This document shows, one piece after another, positions 4,431-28,657 of a stretch of DNA of 64,000 nt. Positions within the stretch are counted from its first letter, which is position 1. Every line of letters starts with the position of its first letter. Location: contig NZ_OX296583.1 of assembly GCF_946463545.1 (NCBI RefSeq), positions 62,001 through 126,000 of the forward strand, written 5' to 3'. Position numbers and translations under genes: made by a program. The notes under the pieces are model-generated. The model had not been told where the DNA came from. It saw only the letters and a list, made by a program, of their open reading frames with translations, and did not search any database. This stretch comes from Methanothermococcus thermolithotrophicus DSM 2095 (GTDB taxonomy: Archaea > AGJL01 > Methanococci > Methanococcales > Methanococcaceae).

Positions 4431-4538
4431 ATGGTCGTTTGCATATAAATGATGTAACCATGAAAAATTAAGGTATAAATTATCATTCTTTAGAAATTAT
4501 CATGATTGAATAATGACAAATAATTTGCAAACGATTAT
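4431..4538. repeat. Inverted-repeat-bounded element (copy 1)
   Basis: ATGGTCGTTTGCAT at the left end is mirrored by ATTTGCAAACGATTAT at the right end. Similar ends (ATAGTCGTTCTGCAA / TTCGCAGAACGACTAT) bound elements at 11436-11640 and 12630-12713 and occur as a single end at 49637-49650. The internal sequence is AT-rich and non-coding. It starts immediately after the roadblock gene stop and ends just before the C/D-box RNA. Confidence 0.5.
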
Positions 4539-4544
4539 ACACCA

Positions 4545-4625
4545 TATAGGCAAATGATGATATTATCCCCGGCTGATTCGTCTTAAACTAGGCGAAGAAG
4601 ATGAGAAACTTAACTGATGCCTATA
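4545..4625 (+). ncRNA. C/D-box guide sRNA (2'-O-methylation guide)
   Basis: All elements of an archaeal C/D sRNA are present in order: a terminal stem TATAGGCA (4545-4552) with TGCCTATA (4618-4625), box C ATGATGA (4554-4560), a 12-nt guide, box D' CTGA (4573-4576), box C' AGATGAG (about 4599-4605), a second guide, and box D CTGA (4614-4617). The D' guide TATTATCCCCGG is complementary over 10 nt to the CCGGGGAUAA loop of 23S rRNA. The D'-C' spacer is unusually long and can fold (TTCGTC with GGCGAA). A T-rich stretch follows. Not transcript-verified. Confidence 0.8.
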
Positions 4626-4640
4626 TTTTTTTATTTTATT
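4624..4640 (+). terminator. T-rich terminator after the C/D sRNA
   Basis: A run of Ts interrupted by single As follows the sRNA terminal stem directly. This is the usual archaeal intrinsic termination signal and matches the proposed 3' end of the RNA. Confidence 0.5.
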
Positions 4641-9190: not shown

Positions 9191-9747
9191 GTTTGAATAG
9201 CTAATCCATTATCTTGAAATCTTTACAAGATTTCAAAAAATCAAAAACATAGTTTTTGATTAAACAAGGATGGAAACACAGGTACGAATATGTCTTTTTT
9301 CTTGTGTTTGTAGAGTCTAAAAGACTCATCCATTAAAACAAGGATGGAAACTGTATTTATGTTCAAAAAATAGCTTTAATATCTAGTTTGAATAGCCAAT
9401 CCACTATCTTAAAATCTGTAAGATTCTCGACGAAATCTTTAAGATTTCGTGAGTCTCTACAAAAATTCGAAGAATTTTTGTGAGTCAGTAAATTCTTCGG
9501 ATTTACTTCGATCGACAAAAACCATGGGTTTAGTTAGATAATCGTAGATTATTCAACTCTCGACGAAACCGAAGGTTTCGTGAGTCAGCGAATCTGAAAG
9601 ATTTGCTTCGATCCCCGCAACTATGTTGCGGTGGATTGTGAATCGACAAATTCTTTAGAAATTTGTCTCGATCAGCAAATCACATAGTGATTTGCCTCGA
9701 TTAAGAAATCAAATAACACAGTTGTTTGATTAAACAAGGGAGAATAA
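9191..9747 (+). CRISPR. Decayed three-repeat CRISPR array with repeats split by palindromic insertions
   Basis: Repeat a is split: left half GTTTGAATAGCTAATCCATT.. (9191-9211), a 50-bp insert (9212-9261), right half AAACAAGGATGGAAAC (9262-9277). Repeat b (9315-9351) is intact with one mismatch to the main-array repeat. Repeat c is split: left half 9386-9406, a 325-bp insert (9407-9731), right half AAACAAGGGAGAAT.. (from 9732). Spacers are 37 and 34 nt (9278-9314, 9352-9385). Both insertions fall after nucleotide 21 of the 37-nt repeat. Confidence 0.82.
9407..9731. repeat. Composite cluster of palindromic units inside a CRISPR repeat
   Basis: At least eight hairpins in tandem, joined by short linkers such as CTCGAC, GTGAGTC and GATC. 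Examples are ACGAAATC-TTTAA-GATTTCGT, TAAATTC-TTCG-GATTTA-like units, ACGAAACC-GAA-GGTTTCGT, CCCCGCAACTAT-GTTGCGGTGG and ACAAATTC-TTTAG-AAATTTGT. A cluster with the same module order lies at 57487-57675. The right end, TTGTTTGATT, equals the right end of the insert in the last repeat of the main array. Confidence 0.75.
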
Positions 9748-25470: not shown

Positions 25471-28400
25471 GTCTGAAAGACTCATCCATTAAAACAAGGA
25501 TGGAAACGTAGATAATCTATAGGAATCAGGAATAGTATTGACGTCTGAAAGACTCATCCATTAAAACAAGGATGGAAACTAACATCTTTTATTTCTTTCA
25601 TTTTTATTCACCTTGTCTGAAAGACTCATCCATTAAAACAAGGATGGAAACCTGCTAAGAATGATTTTTTAGGCATTGATGTCATGTCTGAAAGACTCAT
25701 CCATTAAAACAAGGATGGAAACACTTTTCAATTATATTTACATTTCCTTTCATTGTCTGAAAGACTCATCCATTAAAACAAGGATGGAAACAATTCTTTT
25801 TCTCTGTGTTGTTTAAATCGGAAAGTCTGAAAGACTCATCCATTAAAACAAGGATGGAAACTTTAATCCTAAAAGCTCTCCAATATTTCTTAAGGTCTGA
25901 AAGACTCATCCATTAAAACAAGGATGGAAACTTTCTTTTTCCATGTTATCACCTTTTTATTTTTGTCTGAAAGACTCATCCATTAAAACAAGGATGGAAA
26001 CGCTGCTTCTATAGTTTCAGCTATTTTCTTCAAGTCTGAAAGACTCATCCATTAAAACAAGGATGGAAACCCTGAAGCATGTTCCTCAATAATGGTGGGT
26101 AGTGTCTGAAAGACTCATCCATTAAAACAAGGATGGAAACCTTTTGGAGGATACTTCCATTCAATATATGCTTGTCTGAAAGACTCATCCATTAAAACAA
26201 GGATGGAAACATTGCTTGAGATCTCCTTTTTTTCTCTTTTTTGTCTGAAAGACTCATCCATTAAAACAAGGATGGAAACGTTTTAAAACCTAGTTTACAC
26301 CGGCCTATCTCATCATCGTCTGAAAGACTCATCCATTAAAACAAGGATGGAAACTTTTCATTTCTTCCCTGTTTTGGGAGTCTGAAAGACTCGTCTGAAA
26401 GACTCATCCATTAAAACAAGGATGGAAACTCATACATTCTTTCATCCCATCCGAAAGTTTTTCATAGTCTGAAAGACTCATCCATTAAAACAAGGATGGA
26501 AACATGGATAAAAAGTAAGATAAAGTAGGGGATTATGTCTGAAAGACTCATCCATTAAAACAAGGATGGAAACTCTTTTCAAAAGCTACGCTGCGGACAT
26601 ATTCTTCGTCTGAAAGACTCATCCATTAAAACAAGGATGGAAACCTCTTTGTTTGCAGTAATTAATTAGTAGTGTGGTGGAGTCTGAAAGACTCATCCAT
26701 TAAAACAAGGATGGAAACATCTCTTGTATCCTGAGATACTCTTGCTCCAACATAGTCTGAAAGACTCATCCATTAAAACAAGGATGGAAACTTGTTGGTA
26801 TTTCTATTAATCTCCAATCACCAGGTCTGAAAGACTCATCCATTAAAACAAGGATGGAAACCGCAAAAGCAAATCATTAACTTGATAGAATATGAGGTCT
26901 GAAAGACTCATCCATTAAAACAAGGATGGAAACTTTGATGTGGTTAATTTTTTATTTGTGGCTTTAAGTCTGAAAGACTCATCCATTAAAACAAGGATGG
27001 AAACAATGATTAAGGTTAATATGATAAATTTTAATAATGTCTGAAAGACTCATCCATTAAAACAAGGATGGAAACTTTTTGCACATAGTGCCTCTACATA
27101 ATTGTTTGTGTCTGAAAGACTCATCCATTAAAACAAGGATGGAAACTTGTATTGGTTATTTTTATTAATTCATCGCTATTTAGTCTGAAAGACTCATCCA
27201 TTAAAACAAGGATGGAAACTGTTTAGGTCATTCAAATCAATCTTATTTACTGCACTGTCTGAAAGACTCATCCATTAAAACAAGGATGGAAACAAGACCA
27301 AACGGCTGCAGCATCAACTTTTGTTGTATTGTCTGAAAGACTCATCCATTAAAACAAGGATGGAAACTTTTTCAACCGTTATAGTAAATCAAAGTTTTTG
27401 TCTGAAAGACTCATCCATTAAAACAAGGATGGAAACTTACTCTTTCAATGGTCGTATACTCATCAGGTTGTGTCTGAAAGACTCATCCATTAAAACAAGG
27501 ATGGAAACGGATATATTGATTACGGGGAAAAGGAAGGCTTTAAAAGTCTGAAAGACTCATCCATTAAAACAAGGATGGAAACAAAGTTGTCTTTTTTCAT
27601 GGTGGTAATTATTAATCTGTCTGAAAGACTCATCCATTAAAACAAGGATGGAAACAAGAATATAAACTTGGCATGTACATCTACACAAATGTCTGAAAGA
27701 CTCATCCATTAAAACAAGGATGGAAACATCTACAGCATCACGAAATACTTCATTACCTAAAGTCTGAAAGACTCATCCATTAAAACAAGGATGGAAACTC
27801 ATTATGTAAAATACCAAAGTGATATAATAATCAGTCTGAAAGACTCATCCATTAAAACAAGGATGGAAACTCATTCTACAAGGGAACCGGACAACATCCA
27901 TTTATGTCTGAAAGACTCATCCATTAAAACAAGGATGGAAACAACATGGATTAAAAGTTGATGGAACTGGCATACAGTCTGAAAGACTCATCCATTAAAA
28001 CAAGGATGGAAACTAAACTCTACCTTATATTTTATTTTTATTTCATGTCTGAAAGACTCATCCATTAAAACAAGGATGGAAACAGCTTTTTAACCCAGCA
28101 ATATATTTTGCATCAACGTCTGAAAGACTCATCCATTAAAACAAGGATGGAAACTTTACAGTCCATACTCCATTAACATTCAAATAAAGTCTGAAAGACT
28201 CATCCATTAAAACAAGGATGGAAACTTATATCTACACTTAATGTTGCTCCATCTCCTTGTGTCTGAAAGACTCATCCATTAAAACAAGGATGGAAACTGA
28301 GAAGGTATAGAGTTAAAGAAATATCTAAAAAGTCTGAAAGACTCATCCATTAAAACAAGGATGGAAACAAGAAATGTACATTTGTGATTTGATAGACAGA

Positions 28401-28657
28401 AAAAAAGTCTGAAAGACTCATCCATTAAAACAAGGATGGAAACAATTTAAATAAAAATCATTCAAAAAGTAGAAGGTGTCTGAAAGACTCATCCATTAAA
28501 ACAAGGATGGAAACCCTTTCCAGCCCCAATGCCTCATAAGCGGTTATGTCTGAAAGACTCATCCATTAAAACAAGGATGGAAACTCGAAGAATGGATAGA
28601 AATAAGAAACCTTATTGAAAGTCTGAAAGACTCATCCATTAAAACAAGGATGGAAAC
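25471..28657 (+). CRISPR. CRISPR array, 45 intact 37-nt repeats
   Basis: Repeats begin GTCTGAAAGACTC and end AAACAAGGATGGAAAC, and contain a CATCC/GGATG stem with an A/T-rich loop. By eye I count 45 intact copies starting at 25471 and ending at 28657, all identical as far as I could check, with spacers of about 31-38 nt. Copy 46 (28692) is split. The spacer before the repeat at 26393 ends in an extra GTCTGAAAGACTC (26380-26392), a partial repeat duplication. Near-perfect repeat identity fits an active array in the type I-B locus. The first copy lies at the cas4 side, so the newest spacers should be there. Confidence 0.97.

Follow-up and report, generated by a model that had tools for sequence, protein, structure and literature searches.

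The systems closest to the locus described here are the box C/D sRNAs of archaea and the eukaryotic snoRNA variously called snR38, SNORD1 or snoR38 (Rfam RF00213). Archaeal box C/D sRNAs carry RUGAUGA and CUGA boxes and a terminal stem, usually form a K-loop at their internal boxes, and hold two guides of 10-12 nt that follow the +5 rule, with a hotspot of targets near the peptidyl-transferase centre (PMC4644070, PMC7994747). The D' guide of snR38 directs 2'-O-methylation of a residue in that same region of the large-subunit rRNA; yeast Gm2815 (the snR38 site), human Gm4362 and Arabidopsis Gm2805 are one site (PMC8817022). According to the portions of PMC3511168 used here, snR38 was already present in the last eukaryotic common ancestor (LECA); for none of the LECA snoRNAs do they give an archaeal counterpart of firm homology, and they name none for snR38.

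The locus from Methanothermococcus thermolithotrophicus shares the boxes, the terminal stem, the guide length, the +5 geometry and the target region of its archaeal class. It differs in having one functional guide rather than two, and a 21-nt linker with a 6-bp hairpin where the others usually have a K-loop. "The window" below is the whole 64-kb stretch of DNA that was analysed.

Results

Architecture of the sRNA

The locus very likely encodes a box C/D guide sRNA that would direct methylation of 23S rRNA at G2519 (E. coli G2446). Its C and D boxes are joined via a terminal stem with tandem G.A pairs and a 3-nt bulge (AAT, 4553-4555) that precedes the GATGA of box C in K-turn style, and the internal D' and C' boxes are both present (Table 1). 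The sequence-only reading had proposed a C/D-box sRNA with these four boxes and a following T-run, all of which lie where it put them; the terminal stem that it had counted as 8 bp is there as well, with one pair more. A covariance model (R1) built from 15 relatives, with the window sequence left out, matched 4545-4626 at 46.3 bits (E 3e-10), and orthologues occur in two families. A regular-expression scan of both strands found the full architecture at a single place in the window; 40 Markov shuffles of the 64 kb gave no hit.

Table 1. Features of the sRNA locus and its upstream gene, in window coordinates
Feature	Position	Strand	Remarks
Upstream gene, 173 aa	3907..4428	+	homologue just 5' of the sRNA in most Methanococcaceae
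Whole predicted mature box C/D sRNA	4544..4626	+	covariance model R1 match
Terminal stem, 5' arm ATATAGGCA	4544..4552	+	9/9 pairs with 4618-4626
Box C, ATGATGA	4554..4560	+	exact RUGAUGA; invariant among relatives
D' guide TATTATCCCCGG, 12 nt	4561..4572	+	complementary to 23S CCGGGGATAACA
Box D', CTGA	4573..4576	+	exact; invariant among relatives
D'-C' hairpin, stem TTCGTC/GGCGAA	4577..4596	+	fold; 4577-4582 with 4591-4596, loop 4583-4590
Box C', AAGATGA	4598..4604	+	one mismatch to RUGAUGA
D-side guide GAAACTTAA, 9 nt	4605..4613	+	probably orphan
Box D, CTGA	4614..4617	+	invariant among relatives
Terminal stem, 3' arm TGCCTATAT	4618..4626	+	pairs with 4544-4552
T-run, possible archaeal terminator	4626..4632	+	sequence only

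Conservation in Methanococcota

By BLAST against 61 genomes, the segment from the terminal stem through D' is conserved across the family Methanococcaceae. Model R1 found a copy in every member of this family but one, and likewise in every member but one of its sister family Methanocaldococcaceae; the two genomes lacking a match are incomplete (81% and 85%). The homologue search that had been proposed from the sequence extends further: a pattern scan recovered the block of box C, D' guide and D' in 34 of the 36 genomes of the phylum, and in 27/27 of those that are at least 90% complete, while a backward-read control pattern gave no match in the same 36. Each matching genome has one copy, except for an incomplete genome with two places.

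The guide base at the +5 position is C in every orthologue, and its spacing to D' is kept too; variation is found mainly at the two bases beside D', at the guide ends, and as A/G exchanges that pair with U either way. The GGCA/TGCC of the terminal stem is retained in nearly all relatives. The window copy is among the least canonical, with A for G at guide position 11, a short D guide and a mismatched C' box, which in relatives reads GTGATGA or ATGATGA.

The D' guide and its predicted target

The D' guide pairs with its own 23S rRNA at CCGGGGATAACA, which occurs once in the mature region, through 11 of 12 positions, 10 of them contiguous, and in the relatives G004, G005, G009 and G010 the guide and the 23S rRNA of the same genome pair 12/12. 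The complementarity to the peptidyl-transferase loop that had been read from the sequence thus holds. By the +5 rule the modified residue would be the third G of GGGG, G2519 of the organism's own 23S rRNA. The E. coli copy used for numbering exceeds the standard length by 3 nt, so that the first G, at 2447 in that copy, is standard 2444 and the third, at 2449, is standard 2446; the earlier placement near G2446 was therefore right, and the predicted residue lies five nucleotides from the catalytic A2451. Taken by itself the guide match is modest evidence, because random 10-mers of the same composition match rRNA in antisense in 0.8% of trials, but conservation of the guide in 34/36 genomes makes it strong.

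The D' guide also pairs with 16S rRNA around position 137, with one mismatch beside the +5 residue and a score of 10.5, compared with 11 for the 23S site. Together with the changed guide position 11, the imperfect C' box and the 9-nt D guide, this could mean that the window copy is decaying, or has been retargeted to the 16S site or to nothing, while its relatives keep the 23S guide. We regard this as very improbable, given an unbroken run of ten pairs with 23S rRNA that includes the +5 site, a perfect terminal stem and the hairpin formed at C'/D'.

A real C/D sRNA might also serve chiefly as a chaperone of rRNA folding around the peptidyl-transferase loop and direct methylation only incidentally or not at all. 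This loop has to form late in assembly, and some guides have no target or are thought to aid folding. Orphan guides are indeed known (PMC7994747). However, every orthologue retains the +5 base and the D' spacing, neither of which would matter to a pure chaperone, and we consider this explanation improbable compared with a methylation guide.

The D-side guide

Complementarity of 10-12 nt to rRNA is found on the D' side and not on the D side. Within the mature rRNAs of the organism the D guide matches at best 7/9, and an 8/9 match is located in sequence flanking the rRNA locus; the D guide is unconserved among relatives, and no convincing target was found in the own rRNAs of the window species or of most other relatives. 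An occurrence of the D guide sequence in 16S rRNA was discarded as a target, being in sense and not antisense orientation. In Methanocaldococcaceae the D guide forms 11/12 pairs with nearby 23S rRNA at GCGGCTTGCTAC, so that the sRNA there appears to be a double guide, and the Methanococcus D guide matches a 16S site at 9/10 positions, the mismatch adjoining the +5 base. It may be, then, that the RNA was ancestrally a double guide and was reduced to a single one in Methanococcaceae.

Other C/D sRNAs were seen alongside. The organism's own genome holds a second one, L099 (C1:433218-433289; orthologue L092), whose D' guide GTCATCCCTG complements 23S CAGGGATGAC, about 22 nt upstream of the G2446 site. 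In Methanocaldococcaceae a different C/D sRNA (L101, G024 C1:134336-134402) matches Rfam sR3 above its cut-off, at 56.5 bits.

The D'-C' linker

The linker between D' and C' is 21 nt long (4577-4597), close to the unusually long, foldable gap of about 22 nt first described, whereas it measures 2-13 nt in most relatives. Its bases 1-6 pair with 15-20, so that the stem lies flush against D' and ends exactly three bases before GATGA. The fold has a predicted energy of -6.9 kcal/mol, reached in 0.1% of shuffled linkers, and such flush 6-bp ends arise by chance in 0.36% of them. The hairpin is predicted to turn the usual C'/D' K-loop into a full K-turn; a short K-loop, which is a frequent rather than a defining archaeal property, is not present here. 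Compared with its relatives, the long foldable linker is a lineage-specific insertion. Most relatives lack a hairpin, but similar ones are seen in G004 (L003) and in a Hodarchaeota copy (L058), and since these two show it the hairpin probably has more than one origin.

Relation to described RNA families

At gathering thresholds Rfam gives nothing at the sRNA locus, and its matches in the window are CRISPR repeats only: an array of 45 repeats (25471-28657) and a solitary repeat (CRISPR-DR7, 9315-9351) about 16 kb from it. When the thresholds are relaxed, almost every match over the locus is to a C/D snoRNA family. The description of the sRNA as unannotated is accordingly sound for Rfam only, where no family reaches its gathering score.

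The orthologue carrier G005 we take to be M. maripaludis C5. Seven C/D sRNAs were described in that strain by RNA-seq (Dennis et al., 2015, PMC4644070), and its orthologue is probably one of them; the main text of that paper does not mention an equivalent of G2446. In the open literature we found neither the guide sequence nor a report of archaeal G2446 methylation.

The Pyrococcus sR1 family (RF01152) is matched by Methanocaldococcaceae orthologues at 47-48 bits, above its gathering cut-off, and by the window copy at only 12.5 bits. We rejected membership, as the match consists of the boxes only and the sR1 consensus guides differ even from the orthologues above the cut-off.

When the RF00213 consensus guide is aligned to the window copy, its +5 residue falls in the E. 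coli G2446 column, so that the archaeal guide, like that of snR38, sets +5 at yeast G2815 / E. coli G2446. The consensus guides are GUUAUCCCUGU-CUGA for snoR38 and GUUAUCCCCGG-CUGA in most archaeal orthologues. RF00213 is the best Rfam match of the window copy, at 33.1 bits against a gathering score of 45, and is among the best for most orthologues, the highest of which, at 43.8 bits, is also below gathering. The score is not specific: L099, with an unrelated guide, reaches 34.2 bits, whereas the true orthologue L089 reaches only 21.2. We therefore rejected similarity to snoR38 as proof of homology, and common ancestry with snR38 is unproven; the equivalence of the predicted target position with the eukaryotic snR38 site stands.

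The guide outside Methanococcota

When about 85,000 genomes were scanned with the exact pattern, 36 stretches matched. About half are archaeal, from Methanococcota, from one metagenome-assembled genome (MAG) each of Nanoarchaeota, a deep-subsurface archaeon and Hodarchaeota, and from a few others that are doubtful. Those from bacteria are without C/D context, and a phage collection gave no meaningful match to the sRNA. In the phylum of the Hodarchaeota record the strict pattern occurs in 2/228 genomes, one of the matches (also found in L036) lacking C'/D context, and on this count Asgard-wide conservation of the guide was rejected.

It is doubtful that the Methanococcales sRNA and snR38 descend from one ancestral guide that already marked this residue before the archaea-eukaryote split, although the Hodarchaeota MAG (L058), which has a C/D RNA carrying this guide, is compatible with such shared ancestry.

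Two further records have unusual forms. In Marsarchaeota (L040, 6652-6692), TGATGA-AGTTATCCCCGG-CTGA is directly flanked by GAGCTG/CAGCTC and resembles a minimal single C/D guide aimed at the same site; an RF00095 match spans a longer stretch instead. In the Nanoarchaeota MAG (L024, 1733-1850) the guide sRNA appears to be followed by a near-repeat (GATATCCCCGACTGAAAACACAATTGAT), which suggests tandem C/D sRNAs with related guides.

Genomic neighbourhood

The product of the upstream gene has no Pfam match. Its homologues beside the sRNA are 41-51% identical (tblastn) and usually themselves follow a DUF2226 gene. This recurrent arrangement suggests that in most Methanococcaceae the sRNA is co-transcribed, riding on the transcript of the upstream gene.

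With a conserved gene in front and a T-run at its end, the locus might be taken for part of a 3' UTR, or for a terminator, with a chance resemblance to a C/D RNA. This is barely credible, since the element is conserved where the upstream gene is not adjacent (it lies elsewhere in G003, G006, G008, Methanocaldococcaceae and genus g4) and the shuffled windows never produced the architecture.

The interval that separates the sRNA from the upstream gene contains an AT-rich stretch enclosed by a 9-bp inverted repeat (TCGTTTGCA, 4435-4443; TGCAAACGA, 4526-4534), and a 69% identical copy of 4435-4534 with similar ends lies at C1:155621-155723 of the same genome. Possibly this segment, as a small mobile element or repeat, moved the sRNA off the upstream gene.

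Discussion

Based on this analysis we can outline how the sRNA would work as a methylation guide. It would probably be released from the upstream gene's transcript by cleavage or trimming and shielded by bound proteins. L7Ae would bind both K-turns, C/D and C'/D', the latter with its own hairpin, after which Nop5 and fibrillarin would join; a fibrillarin gene is present in the genome (match at 2e-99). The D' guide would then pair with CCGGGGAUAA(C)A in 23S rRNA, and fibrillarin would methylate the 2'-OH opposite the fifth guide base, with the D side serving as a scaffold that has no clear target in the window species.

Archaeal guide RNAs turn over quickly. Mesophilic methanococci keep few of them, M. 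maripaludis having seven (PMC4644070). Retention of this guide in all 27 near-complete genomes of the phylum, together with its aim at the catalytic loop, points to a real functional weight of the predicted peptidyl-transferase methylation.

The sRNA is otherwise ordinary in its class, and its interest lies in near-universal retention, in a predicted target shared with a LECA snoRNA, and in a lineage-specific change from K-loop to K-turn. That change, in one lineage, would be a natural experiment on C/D RNP assembly, and the site held in common with eukaryotic snR38 would offer a tractable test of the modification's role in a genetically workable archaeon.
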